From Methanomassiliicoccus luminyensis B10 (GTDB taxonomy: Archaea > Thermoplasmatota > Thermoplasmata > Methanomassiliicoccales > Methanomassiliicoccaceae): a DNA stretch of 64,000 bases. The notes under the pieces are model-generated. The model did not search any database. It had not been told where the DNA came from and saw only the letters and a program-made list of their open reading frames with translations. Of the stretch, positions 10,050 through 64,000 are shown piece by piece (position 1 is the stretch's first letter; each line of letters starts with the position of its first letter). Made by a program: the position numbers and the translations under genes. The stretch covers positions 62,001-126,000 of the forward strand of contig NZ_CAJE01000021.1 of assembly GCF_000308215.1 (NCBI RefSeq), read 5' to 3'.

Positions 10050-11291
10050 TCAGATCAGGGTGGTCTGGTTCTTGGGCCGGTAGTTCTTGATGCCCTGGAG
10101 GATCTCGTCCTCCTCCAGGATTTTCTTCGTTTCCACCACCGGCACGGAGGACTCTATCTCCTTGGTGCGCCCCCCGCGGCCGAAGGACCTCACCCGGGCA
10201 TGAATGATGCCCAGCATGTCCAGCTCGGATATGAGGTCGGTGACGCGCCTCTGCGTGAGCACGGTCACGCTGACGATCTGGCTTATCTCCCGGTACGTTT
10301 CGTACACGTCCCCGGTGGTCAGCCGGCCCTCTCCCCTCTCCTCCTGGAGCATGATGGCCATGAGCACCAGCTTCGACTGCGTCGGCAGCGTGCGTATCGC
10401 CTCCGTAACGCAGTCCAGCTCGATCTTGTTCTTGGCCTTGTACACGTGCGCCTCGGTGACCTTGTCGTCCCCGTTGCGCTCGGCGATCTCCGCCGCCACT
10501 CTCAAAAGGTCGAGGGCCCTGCGGGCGTCCCCGTGCTCCTGGGCGGCCAAGGCCGAGCAGAGCGGGGGCACACTGGGGTCGATGACGCCCTGGTAGAACG
10601 CGAGATCGGAACGCTGGTTCAGGATATCCCTCAGCTGCTCGGCATTGTACGGCGGGAACACCATCTTCTCCTCGCCCAGGCGGCTTTTCACGCGAGGATC
10701 GAGGAACTCGGTGAACTTGAGGTCGTTGGAGATGCCGATGAGCGATACCTTGGCGTTCTGGAGGTCGTCGTTGATCCTGGAGAGATGGTAGAGGACGTCG
10801 TCGCCGGATTTGTACACCAGTTTGTCCAGTTCGTCCAGGACGATGATCACGACCCTGTTGGTCTCATCGATCTTCTCCCGTAGGATGTTGTACACACGCT
10901 CGGTGCTCCAGCCAGTGAAGGGGATGCGGTCCTTGAACTTGTCATCGGTGAAGAAGGTGTTGCCGATGTTCTGCAGGACACCGTACTGAGTGTCCACCAC
11001 CTCGCAGTTCATGTACAGGTAGTGAACGCGGTTGAACTGGGAGTCGGCCTTCTTTATCTCCTTCTCCAGGTACTTCACCGAGGCGGTCTTTCCCGTCCCG
11101 GTCTTGCCGAAGATGAGGACGTTGGACGGCCGGTCGCCCTTGAGGGCGGTGACCAGGATCGAGGCGAGCTGGTTGATCTGCTCCTTGCGGTGGGGCAGCT
11201 CGTCCGGGATGTACGACGATCTGAGGATCTCACGGTTGCGCTGGAAAATGCGCTTCGAGTTCAAGTATGGTTGGAATATGTTCTCTTCCAA
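10050..11291 (-). CDS. cdc6: Orc1/Cdc6 replication initiator
   Basis: AAA+ initiator of archaeal replication, about 413 residues. Walker A is GKTGTGKT, Walker B IIVLDELDKL, followed by sensor 1 (SLIGISNDLKF), DPRVKSRLGEE and a C-terminal winged helix (about residues 310-395). The open frame extends to 11501, but the extra N-terminus is low-complexity and runs through the ORB motifs. The family normally starts just before IFQPYLNSKRIF, which fits a TTG at 11291 preceded by a G-rich run. The upstream intergenic region carries two ORB-like sites, the usual cdc6-origin arrangement. Confidence 0.95.
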   Translation of the reverse strand: MEENIFQPYLNSKRIFQRNREILRSSYIPDELPHRKEQINQLASILVTALKGDRPSNVLIFGKTGTGKTASVKYLEKEIKKADSQFNRVHYLYMNCEVVDTQYGVLQNIGNTFFTDDKFKDRIPFTGWSTERVYNILREKIDETNRVVIIVLDELDKLVYKSGDDVLYHLSRINDDLQNAKVSLIGISNDLKFTEFLDPRVKSRLGEEKMVFPPYNAEQLRDILNQRSDLAFYQGVIDPSVPPLCSALAAQEHGDARRALDLLRVAAEIAERNGDDKVTEAHVYKAKNKIELDCVTEAIRTLPTQSKLVLMAIMLQEERGEGRLTTGDVYETYREISQIVSVTVLTQRRVTDLISELDMLGIIHARVRSFGRGGRTKEIESSVPVVETKKILEEDEILQGIKNYRPKNQTTLI

Positions 11292-11330
11292 ATAGCCGCC
11301 CCCACAGGTCCTGCCAGAAGGTACCACCCT

Positions 11331-11354
11331 TACCCCACATGTTCCATTGGAAAT
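11331..11354 (-). promoter_or_regulatory. ORB-like site 1
   Basis: The minus strand reads TTTCCAATGGAAC followed by GGGGT. The dyad plus downstream G-run matches the origin recognition box bound by Orc1/Cdc6, with one departure from the TTCCAGTGGAA core. Confidence 0.55.
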
Positions 11355-11460
11355 CGGCAGGACCTCGGTAATCCGTCGTATAGAGGAAGTTGCTAATGTA
11401 GTTTTTCTCCCGGCACTCCCCAGGCGTGCGTCGGACGCCGCGCGGACGTGATGCCGGGAG

Positions 11461-11488
11461 ACCCCCACCCCTTTATTTCCACTGGAAC
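11461..11488 (-). promoter_or_regulatory. ORB-like site 2
   Basis: The minus strand reads GTTCCAGTGGAAAT, then AAA and a long G-rich run (GGGGTGGGGGT). It is a near-perfect ORB dyad plus G-string, in the same orientation as site 1 and about 130 bp farther from cdc6. Confidence 0.7.
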
Positions 11489-11697
11489 GCGATCTCGCCA
11501 CCCCCGACCCGGGCGGAGCCCCCCCGACGACGTGGACGAACGGGGCGCGGCTCCCGATCGAGACGTTCTTGACGCGATGAGACGGGGGGATGAGGGAGGG
11601 AGCGAAACATCCAGATACCTACATCAGCATCCATCGGATACCGGGAACGTGCGTTTTCGGAAGAAGTGTGAGACGTTAGACGAAGAAACTACTTACG

Positions 11698-55603: not shown

Positions 55604-56680
55604 ATGCGGAGGAAACCCATCATAGCTTTGGCTCTGGTCGCCGTCATAATCGTGGCTAGTGTGGGAGCATACTACGCCACAGCGGGCAAGAGCGATCCTG
55701 ACGGCCCCATCGACCCGACATCCGTCACTATCACCGACAGCTCGGGGACGAGCGTCACCATTGAGATGCCCATTACCGCGGTAGCGGTCACCAATACCAA
55801 CGCCGCCAAGTTCATGCAGGTGCTGGGCGTAGCCGATCTGGTCAAGGGATCTGAGGAGACCACCCGGACGATGCTGCCCGAGATATATGGTGACACTGAT
55901 GACATCGGCAAATACAGCGCCCCCAACGGGGAAGACATCCTCTCCTCCGGGTCCAAAATCCTGATCACCCAGTTCAGCTCCAGGGGCATCACCAATTACG
56001 ACGAGCTCACCGCTATGGGGATCAAGGTCATACGCCTCGACATGTACGGCGAGACCATGCTGGAGGACCTCCAGAAGTTCGCGTCCCTGTTTGCCCCGTC
56101 CGCTCAGGAGAAGGCGAACGAATACATTGCAATGTACACCGAGGTGGTGGACCGAGTGCTCGCCCTCGACACGGACAGCAGCGATGATCCCAACTTCCTG
56201 TTCGAGTTCCTGAGCATGAAGAAGCCCTACTCTGACAATTCCGAGCTCAGCAAGATCGCGGAGAGCATCGGCGCCGTGAACTGCATCGGATATCTCCATC
56301 CTAGCGCCACCGGGGCGACCTCGGACGTGCAGGCGGCAGCGCTGCTGAACTGGGACAAGCTCAACGGCATCGACTATATCTTGATCAGGGGCACGATCTC
56401 GGACACCTCCACTCCTCAGTCGCAGTTCGACAAGTTCCTCGCCGTGGACATTCTGTACGAGGAGTTCACCGCCATTGACGCGGGCCATGTATACGTAATC
56501 GACACCGACGTCCTATCCGGGCCCCTGGACTATGTCGGGTATGTCTGCATCGCCATCGCGCTGGGCCTCGATGTCGGCGACCTTGATCCCTCGGCGCTCG
56601 TCGCGGACTTCAACGAGAAGTACGGGTTCAGCTACGGCAAGACCCAGTTCGTGTTCAACGTCGGCCCGGTACCTGCTTGA
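55604..56680 (+). CDS. ABC importer substrate-binding protein (iron complex/cobalamin type)
   Basis: 358 residues. Signal/anchor at 5-27 without a lipobox Cys, so it is probably held by the uncleaved helix. The FepB/BtuF-like domain follows: SVTITDSSGTSVTIEMPITA, EDILSSGSKILITQFS, MGIKVIRLDMYGETMLEDL, and a C-terminal VYVIDTDVLSGP. It binds siderophore, heme or corrinoid; which one cannot be told. First gene of a three-gene operon. Confidence 0.88.
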   Translation: MRRKPIIALALVAVIIVASVGAYYATAGKSDPDGPIDPTSVTITDSSGTSVTIEMPITAVAVTNTNAAKFMQVLGVADLVKGSEETTRTMLPEIYGDTDDIGKYSAPNGEDILSSGSKILITQFSSRGITNYDELTAMGIKVIRLDMYGETMLEDLQKFASLFAPSAQEKANEYIAMYTEVVDRVLALDTDSSDDPNFLFEFLSMKKPYSDNSELSKIAESIGAVNCIGYLHPSATGATSDVQAAALLNWDKLNGIDYILIRGTISDTSTPQSQFDKFLAVDILYEEFTAIDAGHVYVIDTDVLSGPLDYVGYVCIAIALGLDVGDLDPSALVADFNEKYGFSYGKTQFVFNVGPVPA

Positions 56681-56702
56681 GCTAGATAGCAAGGGTGAGC
56701 AT

Positions 56703-57881
56703 ATGGCGGAAGCGGACAAGGTCACGGAGGCGGAGAGGACCGGCCTGATGGACATCCTGAGGAACAGGATCTCTTACGACGGACTGGAGGGCGCCTACAA
56801 CGTCACCGTGAGGAAGAGGGTGACGTTCATCCTATTCCTGCTCGCACTGACCGTAATCGCTTCGGTGGCGGCCCTTGGGATCGGTTCTGTCGACATACCG
56901 GTAACGGATACCCTGAGGGTTATCGGCCACGCCCTGTTCCCCTCTCACATTGAGGGGCCGGAAAGGGAATGGTACTCCGCCATCATTCTGAACAGCAGGA
57001 TGCCCCGGGTCTTCATGGCCGTCATCACCGGCCTGAGCCTGGCCATGTCAGGCGTCATAATGCAAGGCATCCTCAGGAACCCCCTGGTGAGCCCGTTCAC
57101 GCTGGGGGTCTCCTCCGCCGCATCCTTCGGTGCGGCCATGGCCCTGGTATACGCGCCCATGATGTTCGGCGCGGTCTACTATGAAAGCGCGACCTTCCTC
57201 GGACAGCCGATAGCCGTCAAGAACCTGTTGCTCATACTCTTCTCGTTCCTGTTCGGGTTGGGGAGCGTGGGGCTGGTCCTTTTGATATCGAAGAGGGGGG
57301 ACGTCTCTCGGTCCACCATGATCCTCTCTGGCGTGGTGATAAGCTACCTCTTCCAAGCCGGGATATCATTCGCGAAGTACATCTCCAATGACGACGCGTT
57401 GCGGGAGATAACCCTCTGGCTCATGGGAGGCATGTGGGGGGTGACCTGGGGCTCCGTGATCATGCTGCTCCCGATAGTGGTGGTATGCTTCGGGCTCATG
57501 GAGAAACTGACCGTGGACATTAACACGCTTTCAACGGGGGACGAGGTGGCCAGCAGCCTGGGGATCAGCGTGAACAAGCTGAGGACATCGGGACTGGTGC
57601 TTTCCGCCCTGGTAAGCTCCGCCTGCCTAGCCTTCACCGGCATCATCGGGTTCATTGGACTGATGGCGCCGCACATCTGCAGGAGGTTCATAGGCAACGA
57701 CAACCGGTACCTCCTGCCCGCCTCGGCCTTGATGGGCGCGCTCATCCTGCTGATATCGGACACCGTAGCCAGGATGATTATCAGTCCCTCCCAGCTGCCG
57801 GTGGGGGTCATAATGTACATCATCGGCGGCATATTCTTCATATGGCTCGTTACCCGGAAGAACTGGAGGAACATGGCGTGA
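56703..57881 (+). CDS. ABC importer permease (FecCD/BtuC family)
   Basis: 392 residues from ATG 56703 (GGGTGA just upstream). About ten membrane helices; family motifs LNSRMPRVFMAVITGLSLAM, GVIMQGILRNPLVSPFTLGV, and the coupling helix GFIGLMAPHICRRFIG. The N-terminal 38 residues are a charged extension beyond the usual start. Confidence 0.92.
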   Translation: MAEADKVTEAERTGLMDILRNRISYDGLEGAYNVTVRKRVTFILFLLALTVIASVAALGIGSVDIPVTDTLRVIGHALFPSHIEGPEREWYSAIILNSRMPRVFMAVITGLSLAMSGVIMQGILRNPLVSPFTLGVSSAASFGAAMALVYAPMMFGAVYYESATFLGQPIAVKNLLLILFSFLFGLGSVGLVLLISKRGDVSRSTMILSGVVISYLFQAGISFAKYISNDDALREITLWLMGGMWGVTWGSVIMLLPIVVVCFGLMEKLTVDINTLSTGDEVASSLGISVNKLRTSGLVLSALVSSACLAFTGIIGFIGLMAPHICRRFIGNDNRYLLPASALMGALILLISDTVARMIISPSQLPVGVIMYIIGGIFFIWLVTRKNWRNMA

Positions 57882-58672
57882 GGTTCAACGTCGAGAAGGT
57901 CTGTCAGAGCTACGACGCCCTGGAGGTATTGAAGGACATCAGCTTCACGGCCGAGGCCGGGGAGGTCGTTGCGCTCATAGGGCCGAACGGCTCCGGAAAA
58001 TCGACGTTGATCAAGACCATATGCAACGTCAAGCCCGCCCTTTCCGGGCGCATCGATATCGACGGCACCGATATCGCCGCTATGGACAAGAAGGACCTCG
58101 CGAAGCTCATCGGCTATGTGCCGCAAAGCTATGCGTACTCCGCGTTCTCCACCGTGTACGACACTGTCCTGATAGGCAGGCGGCCGTACATGGAGTGGTC
58201 TTACACCAGGAAGGACCTCAGGATCGCCGCTGAGGCGATGACGGCCATGAAGGTGGACGACCTCGCCGACCGCTACGTGAACGAACTGTCGGGGGGACAG
58301 ATGCAGAGGGTTTTCCTCGCCCGCGCCCTGGCCCAGGACCCGCGGTTCTACCTGTTCGATGAGCCGACCAGTTCGCTGGACCTGAAGAACCAGCTGGATG
58401 CCATGAAGATCATGAGGAGCATCGTCAAGACAAGGGGGTCTGGGATGATAGTCGCGCTCCACGACCTCAACCTGGCCTTGCGGTATTCGGACAAGACCCT
58501 GGTGATGAAGGACAAGGGCGTGTACGCCTTCGGGAGGCCTGAGGATGTGATCATCGAAAGGATGATACGCGATGTATACGGCGTCAGCGCGGAGATCGTG
58601 GAAGGGAAGCACGGGAGGTATGTACAGCCCTACGACGATCCTGACAGGGACCCTCTGGTGGCCACGATATGA
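57878..58672 (+). CDS. ABC importer ATPase (FecE/BtuD family)
   Basis: 264 residues. Walker A GPNGSGKST, Q-loop YVPQSYAY, signature ELSGGQMQRVFLARAL, Walker B FYLFDEPTSSLDL, H-loop VALHDLNLAL. The GTG at 57878 overlaps the permease stop (GTGA) and has GGAGG about 9 bases upstream, so it is preferred over the in-frame ATG 57842 inside the permease gene. Confidence 0.92.
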   Translation: MRFNVEKVCQSYDALEVLKDISFTAEAGEVVALIGPNGSGKSTLIKTICNVKPALSGRIDIDGTDIAAMDKKDLAKLIGYVPQSYAYSAFSTVYDTVLIGRRPYMEWSYTRKDLRIAAEAMTAMKVDDLADRYVNELSGGQMQRVFLARALAQDPRFYLFDEPTSSLDLKNQLDAMKIMRSIVKTRGSGMIVALHDLNLALRYSDKTLVMKDKGVYAFGRPEDVIIERMIRDVYGVSAEIVEGKHGRYVQPYDDPDRDPLVATI

Positions 58673-59658: not shown

Positions 59659-60843
59659 TTGTCCGATTCAGCGGCAAACCACATTGAAGAGAGCTTCGAG
59701 TTCGATTGTCCAGAGTGCGGCGCTCACATTGAGGGGGAGGTCGACCGCTGCCCCAAGTGCGGGGTGGAGTTCGTCATTGAGGAGGTCTCCGAGGCAGAGT
59801 GCCCCCAGTGCCACGAGACCATCCCGGTGGACTGCCTGAAATGCCCCTACTGCGGGCTTGCCTTCAGCGCTCCCTCGGAGGCCGAGGAGCCCCGGGCGGA
59901 GGTCCAGGAAGCGCCGGTGGAGGTGCGGCCGGCGATCGAGCCCGAGCCGGCAATGACCGAGATCGAGGAGGAGCCGCTCACCCCGGTGTTCAGGGCCGAG
60001 CCGGAACCGGAGCCGCAGATCGAGGCGCCTTCCGCACCCGTCTCCGCCCCCGCGAAAGCTCCAGCGGAGGACGGCCCCGCCGCCCCGGACCGGCTGAAGG
60101 ACGAGTTCTCAGAACTGGTCGGAAGGGTCAAGCCGCTTCTCGCGCTGGCCAAGGACTTCAGCATCGACGCCGTGGACGCCCGCAAGCTCATCAACCGCGC
60201 CGTGGAGCTCGGCAAGAACAAGGACGTGGAGGGTGCCGTCAGGACCCTCCGGGAGTGCTCCGCCGCGCTGGACCAGGCCATCGGCGCCTACATGGACAAG
60301 GAGTTCTCGGTGCTGGAGGAACTGGCCGAGGTGGCCAGGAAGACCGGCGGCGATCCCGACCCCATCGTGGCGGCCACCGAGAGCGCCAGGGCGATGCGCG
60401 CCCAGGGCGACGTCGAGGGGACCCTGACCAAGATCCGCGCCGGCAAGAAGTTCGCCGAGCAGCTGACCGGGCCGTACGTTTCCGCCCACGAGATGTACGA
60501 GGCCCTGGAGAAGCTGGTGCAGACCTCCGAGATCTTCTTCCTGGACGTGAGGGAGATCCGCAAGGTCCTGGGCGAATCGAAGGAGGCCGGGGAGAACGGC
60601 GACTGGAACACCATGGCCGCCCTGGCCCGCAAGGGGCGCGAGGACCTGGTCCGCATGCTGCCCGATCTCCTGAAGGGAGAGATGCACAAGGCCAAGCAGT
60701 CCATGATGGAAGCGAAGCTCCAGGGCAGGGACGTCAATGCCGGGGTCAAGGCCCTCAAGGAAGCGGCGTCGGCCGTGAAGCTGAAGCGCTACGAGGACGC
60801 GCTGTACCTGATGGCCGATCTCAAATCCTCCAAGAGCGCGTGA
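59659..60843 (+). CDS. Double zinc-ribbon protein with helical domain
   Basis: 394 residues with a TTG start. Two zinc ribbons: CPECGAHIEGEVDRCPKCG (about 16-34) and CPQCHETI ... CLKCPYCG (about 49-68). An acidic Pro-rich linker (70-140) leads to an all-helical Ala/Lys/Glu-rich domain (about 145-390) with repeating roughly 60-residue units. No enzyme motif. Convergent with the DnaA-like gene; their ends touch. A protein-interaction or scaffolding role is a guess. Confidence 0.7.
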   Translation: MSDSAANHIEESFEFDCPECGAHIEGEVDRCPKCGVEFVIEEVSEAECPQCHETIPVDCLKCPYCGLAFSAPSEAEEPRAEVQEAPVEVRPAIEPEPAMTEIEEEPLTPVFRAEPEPEPQIEAPSAPVSAPAKAPAEDGPAAPDRLKDEFSELVGRVKPLLALAKDFSIDAVDARKLINRAVELGKNKDVEGAVRTLRECSAALDQAIGAYMDKEFSVLEELAEVARKTGGDPDPIVAATESARAMRAQGDVEGTLTKIRAGKKFAEQLTGPYVSAHEMYEALEKLVQTSEIFFLDVREIRKVLGESKEAGENGDWNTMAALARKGREDLVRMLPDLLKGEMHKAKQSMMEAKLQGRDVNAGVKALKEAASAVKLKRYEDALYLMADLKSSKSA

Positions 60844-62688
60844 TCACGGCCGTATCGGTTCCAGCTCCCTCTCCAGAACGGCCTTCTCCTGGACGTTGAG
60901 GCTCTCCGGGCTTATCGACAGCAGGAAGACGGCGCTCCTCTCCGACACCTGGTCCACCAGGGAGCGGACGAAGCGTATCACCCCGTCGAAGGTGGCGGTG
61001 CTGATGAGGTAGTGCAGGTCGTCCAGAAGTACTATCGAGCGCCCCTCCCGGCGGACGTGGTCCTCCACCAGCCTCACGATCTTCTCCAGCGAGGGCTGCA
61101 CGGTCCTCTCGTCCCTGGACTCGTATTCCGTCATCCAGTAAACGTCGGCCTTCCGCCCGGCCAGCCTGGTCCGCACCGCCGAGGGGTTGCTGCGGGTGAA
61201 CACCTGGGCGCGGAAGCCCATGTCCAGCATGGACAGCAGCAGGTCGTAGGAGCGGTCCGGCCTCGATTCCTCGACCAGGTAGGAGCGCTTCTCCACCAGC
61301 TCCGGGAGCCTGCCGCTCTCGGGGACCTCCGCGCTCCCCAGAACCTCCCGCGCCAGCTCCAGGGTTATGTCCGAACGCATCAGCGAGGCGAAGGCGATGA
61401 CGCGGTCCATCTCGCTCCCCAGCTGGCTGATGTTGTCGGAGAACCGGTCGGCCACGAAGCCCATGACCTCCTGGGGGATCTCCAGGCCCTCCTCGATCAC
61501 CATCCTCTCCAGGATGTTCACCCTGGCCCGGCGGTCCGGCGGGGACAGGTCCACCACCAGCCCCGGCTCCAGGCACGAGGACAGGCGCTCCGACAGCGCG
61601 GGCACCTCTCTCAGCGGGCGGTCCGAGGTGAGCACCACCTGCTTGCCGCCGGACAACAGCGAGCTGATAGTACGGAACAGCTCCTCTTGCATCCTGTCCC
61701 TGCCGGCGGCGGACTGCAGGTCGTCCACCAGCAGAACGTCCGCCCGCTCGATGCCCTGGCGCAGTTCCCCGTTCCGGGAGGACAGCGACTCCACCTGCTT
61801 CTCGTCCAGCGACTCCAGCGGCAGGTACAGCACATTGGCGTCCGGACGCCCCTTCCTCACCTGGTTGCCGATGGCCTGCAGCAGGTGCGTCTTGCCCAGC
61901 CCGGACCGCCCCTGCACCAGCAGGGGGTTGTATGTTTCCCCGGGGCTCCCCGCCACGGCCCTGGCGGCGGCCTCGGCGAAGCGCGAGCCGGGGCTGAGCA
62001 CGAAGTTGTCGAAGGTATAGAATGGGTCCATGCGAGGGAGCATGGCCGTCTGCTCCCCCGAGGCGCACTGGGGGCAGTACCCCAGGAGATCGGTCGGCCC
62101 CCCGCACTCCGGGCAGGTGGACATCTCAGGGCCCAGGGAGCGCATCTTGTGGTACTGGAGCACCATATCGTAGATCCCCAGGACCTGCTTGTCGGCCTTC
62201 TCCCCCACGATGACCGCGGCGGAGCGGAAAGTGTCCATCAGGTGCTCGCTGATGTTCCCGGGGTCGGCGTTCCGGAGCTTCTCCTGGCGCAGCTTGTCCG
62301 CCGAGGGGCGGTCCTTGGGGGCGCCCAGCCTTCTGACGCGGGCCTGGGGGAACAGGGCCTCGAGGTCATTCAGCCCCACCTTGCCGTGCAGCGTGATCGC
62401 CGCCTCCGGTTGGACCGAGTCGAACCACAGGTACCGGGCCGCCTTGTCCCCCAGGAACCACATCTCCTCGGAGCCGGGAGGCCTGAACACGTACATGCAC
62501 AGGATGGGGATGCCAGCGGAGAGGGAGATCAGGCCTTCCGAGCGCTCTCCCTCCTTGGACAGGCTTACCTTCAGGTATCCTGCGTGGGAGGCCCCCTTCG
62601 CCTTCTCAAGGGCCTCCGTGACAATGTTCTCGCCTCCTCTCCATCGGGAGGCGATCTGTCCCTGCGGGACTCCCAGCTCAAGTAGCAC
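60844..62688 (-). CDS. DnaA-type AAA+ ATPase with zinc ribbon and DUF835-like C-terminal domain
   Basis: 614 residues, GTG start. Residues 1-185: unrecognised alpha/beta domain. Residues 192-208: zinc ribbon CPECGG ... CPQC. Residues 222-455: DnaA-type AAA+ core, with DPFYTFDNFVLSPGSRFAEA, Walker A GRSGLGKTHLLQAIG, Walker B DVLLVDDLQ, sensor 1 LTSDRPLREVP and PPDRRARVNIL. Where bacterial DnaA has the arginine finger (SRFEWGL) this reads SSCLEPGL, and the sensor II Arg of NIRELEGAL is Ser (NISQLGSEM). Domain IV is replaced by residues 468-611, DUF835-like, with SIVLLDDLHYLI. It is not a standard initiator; a signalling or remodelling ATPase is more likely. Confidence 0.82.
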   Translation of the reverse strand: MLLELGVPQGQIASRWRGGENIVTEALEKAKGASHAGYLKVSLSKEGERSEGLISLSAGIPILCMYVFRPPGSEEMWFLGDKAARYLWFDSVQPEAAITLHGKVGLNDLEALFPQARVRRLGAPKDRPSADKLRQEKLRNADPGNISEHLMDTFRSAAVIVGEKADKQVLGIYDMVLQYHKMRSLGPEMSTCPECGGPTDLLGYCPQCASGEQTAMLPRMDPFYTFDNFVLSPGSRFAEAAARAVAGSPGETYNPLLVQGRSGLGKTHLLQAIGNQVRKGRPDANVLYLPLESLDEKQVESLSSRNGELRQGIERADVLLVDDLQSAAGRDRMQEELFRTISSLLSGGKQVVLTSDRPLREVPALSERLSSCLEPGLVVDLSPPDRRARVNILERMVIEEGLEIPQEVMGFVADRFSDNISQLGSEMDRVIAFASLMRSDITLELAREVLGSAEVPESGRLPELVEKRSYLVEESRPDRSYDLLLSMLDMGFRAQVFTRSNPSAVRTRLAGRKADVYWMTEYESRDERTVQPSLEKIVRLVEDHVRREGRSIVLLDDLHYLISTATFDGVIRFVRSLVDQVSERSAVFLLSISPESLNVQEKAVLERELEPIRP

Positions 62689-63350: not shown

Positions 63351-63454
63351 GCCACTGTAGCTCAGCGGCAGTCCGGTCGTTGATGGCCAGACCGCGAAAG
63401 AGCGACGGTTTCGTAAACCGTAGGCCGGGGGTTCGATCCCCTCCAGTGGCTCCA
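63351..63454 (+). tRNA. tRNA-Thr (anticodon CGT), with a D-arm insertion and encoded CCA
   Basis: Acceptor GCCACTG/CAGTGGC, D stem GCTC/GAGC, anticodon stem ACGGT/ACCGT with loop TTCGTAA (anticodon CGT, reads ACG), T stem GGGGG/CCCTC with loop TTCGATC, discriminator T, then CCA. A 29-nt insertion separates the D loop from the 3' half of the D stem; without it the tRNA is a normal 72-mer. G1-C72, C2-G71 and U73 fit archaeal threonine identity. Confidence 0.9.
63371..63399 (+). other. Probable tRNA intron in the D arm
   Basis: 29 nt between AGCGGCA and GAGC (boundaries can slide by one G). It can form a CGGTC/GACCG hairpin. Archaea have introns at such non-canonical positions, removed by the splicing endonuclease, but I could not draw a clean bulge-helix-bulge. 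Confidence 0.6.
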
Positions 63455-63471: not shown

Positions 63472-64000
63472 TTACTCTCTGGTCAGGTACTCCTTCACGA
63501 TCTTCATCGCGCACACGTCCCCGCACATCGAGCAGCCCTCGCTGCCGGGGGTGATGCCCCGGGCGCGATACTCCCGCGCCTTCTCCGGGTCGAGGGCCTC
63601 GGCGAACATGCCCTCCCAGTCCAGGGCCTTGCGCGCTTGTGACATCCTGAGGTCGCGGTCCTTGCCCCGCCCCCGGGCCGCGTCGGCGGCGTGGGCGGCG
63701 ATCTTGCTGGCGATGAGCCCTTCCTTTACGTCTTCCGGCGTCGGCAGGGACAGGTGCTCCGCTGGGGTCACGTAGCACAGGAAGTCCGCGCCGTGGTAGG
63801 CGGCCAGCGTCCCCCCGATGGCGGCGGTGATGTGGTCGTAGCCAGGCGCGATGTCCGTGACCAGCGGCCCCAGCACGTAGAACGGCGCGCCGTCGCACAC
63901 CGCTTTCTGCAGCCTCACGTTGGCCTCGATCTGATCCAGGGGGACGTGCCCCGGGCCCTCCACCATTGCCTGCACGCCGGCCTTGCGGGAGCGGCGGACA
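63472..64000 (-). CDS. thiC: Phosphomethylpyrimidine synthase ThiC (N-terminus cut by window edge)
   Basis: The last about 175 residues of ThiC; the frame is open to position 64000, so the visible start at 63975 is not real. Conserved [55 protein letters not shown], and the C-terminal cluster motif [11 protein letters not shown] (spacing Cx2Cx3C). ThiC converts aminoimidazole ribotide to the thiamin pyrimidine by radical SAM chemistry. The stop is about 20 bases from the convergent tRNA. Confidence 0.95.

Follow-up and report, generated by a model that had tools for sequence, protein, structure and literature searches.

A DnaA-type AAA+ domain joined to DUF835 in Methanomassiliicoccus luminyensis and its relatives across Thermoplasmatota

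The locus and its protein

The window analysed here is a stretch of 64,000 nucleotides, bases 62001-126000 of contig C21 of M. luminyensis, whose genome of 2.62 Mb is divided into 26 contigs. Close to its end lies a gene whose sequence gives the domain order N-terminal domain, four-cysteine ribbon, AAA+ domain of the DnaA clade and DUF835 (Table 1). The residue numbering of an earlier sequence-only reading of this gene was correct to within a few residues.

Table 1. Features of the DnaA-type gene and its surroundings (window coordinates)
Feature	Residues	Position	Strand	Remarks
Orc1/Cdc6		10050-11501	-	profile search
Convergent neighbour: double zinc ribbon + helical protein		59659..60843	+	tail to tail with DnaA-type gene
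DnaA-type AAA+ / DUF835 protein	614 aa	60844..62688	-	GTG start; stop codon 60844-60846
N-terminal alpha/beta domain	1-118	62335..62688	-	pLDDT 94.2
Conserved YDMVLQYHKM motif	173-182	62143..62172	-	
Four-cysteine ribbon CPEC...CPQC	192-208	62065..62115	-	probably zinc-binding
DnaA domain III-type AAA+ domain	220-452	61333..62031	-	
Walker A GRSGLGKTH	260-268	61885..61911	-	intact
Walker B LLVDDLQ	319-325	61714..61734	-	intact
Arginine-finger position (E. coli R285)	Cys372	61573..61575	-	residue alignment
Sensor II position (E. coli R334)	Ser421	61426..61428	-	residue alignment
DUF835 domain	475-609	60862..61266	-	Pfam
End of thiC (presumed)		63472..63975	-	upstream of DnaA-type gene, same strand

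Structure prediction, which the sequence-only reading had proposed for the N-terminal region, gave a confident model of the N-terminal domain (pLDDT 94) but no clear fold match, with nothing in the PDB below E 0.03. Homologues of residues 1-123 show weak similarity to DUF2226 and DUF4388. The ribbon in front of the AAA+ domain had already been read as a zinc ribbon, and its cysteines (C192, C195, C205 and C208) are almost invariant among orthologues; the Pfam score is weak (DUF7575, E 0.06). A helical repeat of about 87 residues, which elsewhere sits just before the YDMVLQYHKM motif, is absent from M. luminyensis' own family.

The C-terminal DUF835 domain (PF05763, 74.6 bits against a gathering score of 33.1) is well conserved, and several DUF835 paralogues occur in the M. 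luminyensis genome. PMC5847659 lists DUF835 among the output domains of archaeal response regulators, as an inactivated KaiC-like (iKaiC) domain. The DUF835 proteins in that list combine it with REC and PAS modules, and none pairs it with a DnaA-type AAA+ domain as here.

Elsewhere in the window, Orc1/Cdc6 was found about 10 kb from the start, where it had been placed before. The contig carries orc1/cdc6.1 at C21:72152-73240 and a second copy at C21:3589-4665. Both genes and their ORB motifs have been reported on contig CAJE01000021, with the ORBs at 73.3 kb, in a study that makes no mention of DnaA (Borrel et al. 2014, PMC4153887). Window positions 55604-58672 (+) probably encode an ABC transporter for metal chelates, with binding protein, permease and ATPase, judged by eye from the translations.

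Affiliation of the AAA+ core

DnaA is normally regarded as the bacterial initiator, absent from archaea. The claim of a DnaA-type AAA+ domain in an archaeon was weighed against other AAA+ clades. The claim holds. Among NCBIfam models, DnaA (TIGR00362) ranks first with 240.5 bits over residues 218-452, followed by Hda with 101 and the IstB helper with 41, and in Pfam Bac_DnaA (PF00308) covers residues 221-380 with 152 bits. The closest PDB relatives by sequence are the B. subtilis DnaA structures 8btg and 8bv3 (E about 1e-59). Bacterial DnaA domain III is also the best match by predicted fold: an AlphaFold2 model superposes on 8bv3 with a TM score of 0.90, normalised by target, and domain III of B. 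subtilis DnaA shares 44% identity with the protein in the structural match. The likeness extends over Walker A and B, sensor I, box VII and the lid. By sequence, the core belongs to the DnaA clade, and an origin from IstB, DnaC or Hda was dismissed on the scores, in which DnaA lies far ahead.

The rest of bacterial DnaA is missing. TIGR00362 aligns only through model positions 102-337 of 437, and the absence of domains I and IV keeps the protein under the equivalog cut-off of 343.9. Residues 1-217 show no match to DnaA profiles that would represent domain I. No profile match was obtained for domain IV, the C-terminal helix-turn-helix that binds DnaA boxes, and DUF835 occupies its place, as the earlier reading had it. 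The protein thus differs from bacterial DnaA in having DUF835 behind the core and other domains in front of it, and in occurring in archaea that use Orc1/Cdc6.

Two other AAA+ proteins invite comparison. Hda (the DnaA regulatory inactivator, TIGR03420) likewise consists of the DnaA AAA+ module and lacks domain IV, but it has neither DUF835 nor a cysteine ribbon; its score here falls short of the equivalog cut-off of 194.8, and it ranks well below DnaA in every relative tested. Orc1/Cdc6 is also an AAA+ initiator, but of a different AAA+ clade and with a winged-helix domain. Its profile matches the protein marginally (15.8 bits, E 0.0045), and does so in the DUF835 region.

Distribution and architectures in Thermoplasmatota

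The protein is one of a family spread across the phylum Thermoplasmatota in several architectures, a point absent from the sequence-only reading. A PF00308 search of M. luminyensis and 60 relatives gave strong matches (145-220 bits) in 20 of the 61 genomes, which share the architecture of the window protein; the single weak match is an IstB-like protein by sequence. With a family profile built on the ribbon and AAA+ region, and matches counted at E up to 1e-15, the family was found in 22 of 147 genomes of the order, in 109 of 300 genomes and 43 of 91 genera of the class, and in 36 of 293 genomes of a phylum sample. Some genomes carry several copies. Within the order sample it is absent from all f2 genomes listed, with gaps in several f1 and f3 genomes. 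PF00308 matches in control archaea are probably generic AAA+ matches, since TIGR00362 at E 1e-20 finds none of these archaea and only the ten bacterial controls. Literature searches for archaeal DnaA, with most subscription papers outside their scope, returned nothing relevant and no description of this family.

Members of the class that were examined have the N-terminal domain and DUF835 in common. In architecture A, found in the class, the N-terminal domain is followed by one helical repeat, usually the cysteine ribbon, AAA+ and DUF835; versions with two repeats occur in other groups of the phylum (L171, L173, L176). Architecture B has seven to eight repeats, AAA+ and C-terminal zinc ribbons (L162/L215, L163/L217). 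Architecture C begins with a segment resembling a signal peptide, followed by Fn3, a transmembrane segment and AAA+ (L165, L170). Architecture D, of about 430 residues, has a coiled N-terminus, AAA+ and a charged tail (L166-L169, L172, L174, L175, L179). In architecture E, a divergent AAA+ gene stands beside a separate gene for the N-terminal region and DUF835 (L182-L185; L218-L220). The helical repeat thus precedes the core one to eight times; in L162 it has no specific Pfam family match. Its match in B-type proteins (E as low as 2e-76) ties architectures A and B to one ancestral fusion. Domain IV was found in no architecture or member examined.

Such recurrence bears on the origin of the gene itself. 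DnaA is otherwise a bacterial family, and a full-length bacterial DnaA on a Nanoarchaeota MAG contig (L056:482-1852) groups with a Bacteroidota sequence and is probably contamination. For the window gene, contamination is refuted and can practically be dismissed, because the same gene, fusion and neighbours recur in numerous archaeal genomes obtained independently, including two that consist of a single contig (G201, G208), and because the gene lies on the same contig as Orc1/Cdc6.

Catalytic and DNA-contact residues

The M. luminyensis protein keeps Walker A and B and sensor I (K266, D322, D323, D356) as well as the R281 equivalent. Two interface residues had been described as seemingly lost, the arginine finger and the sensor II arginine, and alignments to DnaA do place C372 on the RSRF motif and S421 on NIRE. 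The losses are real in this protein but do not extend to most of its relatives. Among 58 non-divergent archaeal sequences (some of them close relatives, so that the counts are not independent), the Walker A lysine is invariant and the R281 equivalent is arginine in 57. The finger is arginine in 55, the remainder being two lysines and the single cysteine of the window protein, and sensor II is arginine in 54, with all four losses within family f1. Only M. luminyensis, among the non-divergent members seen, has lost both; other f1 members have lost sensor II alone. In nine further, more divergent sequences most of these residues are gone. The idea that the whole family has lost its catalytic residues was accordingly dismissed. 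Judged from these alignments, the ATP switch of the family is normally intact, as the finger and sensor II counts indicate, and the losses are specific to the M. luminyensis lineage.

The same losses, together with the deletion of the helical repeat and a long branch in the tree, might mean that in this lineage the ATPase is decaying into a pseudo-enzyme of little remaining function. This seems distinctly unlikely. The frame of 614 residues is intact, Walker A and B, sensor I and the R281 equivalent are kept, and DUF835 remains well conserved. Close pairs show dN/dS of 0.04-0.17, indicating purifying selection, and these include pairs of the same family without the sensor II arginine (about 0.17). 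Distant pairs (L023/L025, L024/L021) were left out because dS is unreliable there.

For contact with single-stranded DNA, we take the relevant positions of E. coli DnaA to be V211, K243 and R245. In Methanomassiliicoccales outside f1, the first is hydrophobic (I/V/L) and the second basic in 13 of 13 sequences, and the third is arginine in 10 of 13, so that single-stranded DNA may still be bound there. In the rest of the class these positions drift.

Gene neighbourhood

The tail-to-tail pairing with the double-zinc-ribbon gene is conserved in 20 loci across the class, and among the Methanomassiliicoccales genomes listed, all that carry the DnaA-type gene also match the zinc-ribbon gene. The latter also occurs in relatives without the DnaA-type gene, which weakens the idea of an obligate partnership. 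On the other side stands a gene that we take to be thiC by sequence recognition rather than profile search, and a tRNA-Thr (CGT) gene lies between it and the DnaA-type gene (window 63376-63454, +).

In relatives, gyrB and then gyrA follow beyond thiC in the opposite direction. gyrB is close to the DnaA-type gene in 14 loci of two lineages (Methanomassiliicoccales and f8), and in the seven genomes of these lineages that have it on one contig with orc1/cdc6.1, the distance between the two is 41-50 kb. Neither the gyrBA neighbourhood nor this distance was part of the earlier reading. A gyrase-linked, origin-proximal position hints at chromosome biology; shared synteny could also explain it.

If the hint is followed, the protein might still work on the chromosome as an ATP-dependent regulator related to single-stranded DNA or supercoiling near the origin, for example by modulating Orc1/Cdc6, MCM or gyrase, as DnaA and Hda do in bacteria. 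The gyrase neighbours, the origin distance and the contact positions kept in Methanomassiliicoccales outside f1 fit such a role, which we nevertheless regard as fairly unlikely. The protein has neither the dsDNA-binding domain IV nor the helicase-loading domain I, and many close relatives do without the gene (all f2 listed, several f1 and f3). The contact residues are lost elsewhere in the class, membrane-anchored and coiled forms exist elsewhere, and linkage to the origin is looser in another family, where the gene is 160 kb from orc1/cdc6.1 (G286).

Signalling context and proposed function

In other lineages, DnaA-type genes keep company with KaiC-like and DUF835 genes. In L212, a gene of the Fn3-transmembrane-AAA+ form precedes a KaiC gene and a 7TM-DUF835 gene; a Rad51/KaiC-like gene adjoins the DnaA-type gene in L209 and, by gene cluster, in L210. 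In L216, a helical-DUF835 gene follows the AAA+ gene at a gap of 4 bp, and in the split form (L218-L220) the gene for the N-terminal domain and DUF835 adjoins the divergent AAA+ gene.

Two wider patterns were seen alongside. Near the DnaA-type gene, L198:3-6335 and also L203, L204, L221 and L224 have a conserved run of three genes, for a KaiC-like ATPase, a protein with a zinc ribbon and a large protein with CARDB repeats. Many genomes of the class show an expansion of DUF835, with as many as 33 matches in G229; the domain often lies in ORFs of about 1400 residues. Family f22 rarely has it, and f2 genomes mostly have one copy.

The protein is probably not an origin initiator. A DnaA AAA+ module of bacterial origin may instead have been taken over to serve as an ATP-dependent assembly switch in signalling of the DUF835/KaiC type, a proposal that we consider about evenly poised between right and wrong. 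The signalling part is suggested by the company that the domains keep. A switch is favoured over replication initiation because domains I and IV are missing while the ATP machinery is intact in most relatives, and because DUF835 is attached, membrane and multi-copy forms exist and the neighbours are KaiC-like. The earlier suggestion of an ATP-dependent switch that may not bind DnaA boxes still offers the best-fitting reading.

Under the signalling proposal, the bacterial DnaA motor (domain III) would have been separated from the initiator parts and become one module of a multi-domain protein. On binding ATP, the AAA+ domains would join head to tail by way of the DnaA-type interface, the assembly would cluster the DUF835 and N-terminal domains, and the clustered domains would signal to partners in an archaeal network of the KaiC/DUF835 type. 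In most relatives, disassembly would be timed by hydrolysis that depends on the arginine finger and sensor II. With both lost, the M. luminyensis copy would probably bind ATP but hydrolyse it inefficiently, so that it would switch off poorly and act more as an ATP-bound scaffold.

A conserved archaeal family that keeps the DnaA motor without its DNA-binding and helicase-loading parts indicates that the motor is separable from initiation, and it would add a bacterial part to archaeal signalling. Natural variants with and without the arginine finger and sensor II offer a way to probe the role of each residue in DnaA-type assembly.

Evolutionary origin

In a tree of 69 AAA+ domains, a single archaeal clade was not rejected (AU p 0.556), and a branch with support 92 separated the sequences of the class from the others. 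The tree singles out no bacterial donor lineage.

In bacteria, dnaA commonly lies near gyrB. The location beside a gyrase of bacterial type is relevant to the question of how archaea obtained this enzyme. PMC9348778, which makes no mention of DnaA, considers gyrase to have reached Euryarchaeal group II in one transfer from bacteria. Together, these points make a joint transfer worth testing, as an idea rather than a result. A Thermoplasmatota ancestor might have taken up bacterial gyrase along with a piece of the origin region, with dnaA near gyrB-gyrA. The motor would then have lost its DNA-binding domains, fused to the helical repeat, then new, and to archaeal signalling domains, and become an ATP-driven assembly switch throughout the phylum. 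Its gene would have stayed next to gyrase and close to the origin, and the switch might inform KaiC/DUF835 signalling of the state of supercoiling or replication. As a whole, this scenario is speculative and unlikely to be right in all its steps.

Some of the gyrase genes are themselves interrupted. The gyrB adjoining the DnaA-type gene in L188 (L188:11280-14549) contains an intein with an HNH endonuclease motif, and an intein is probable in gyrB of L189, L190 and L192, judging from the similar lengths (1073-1101 residues across these).
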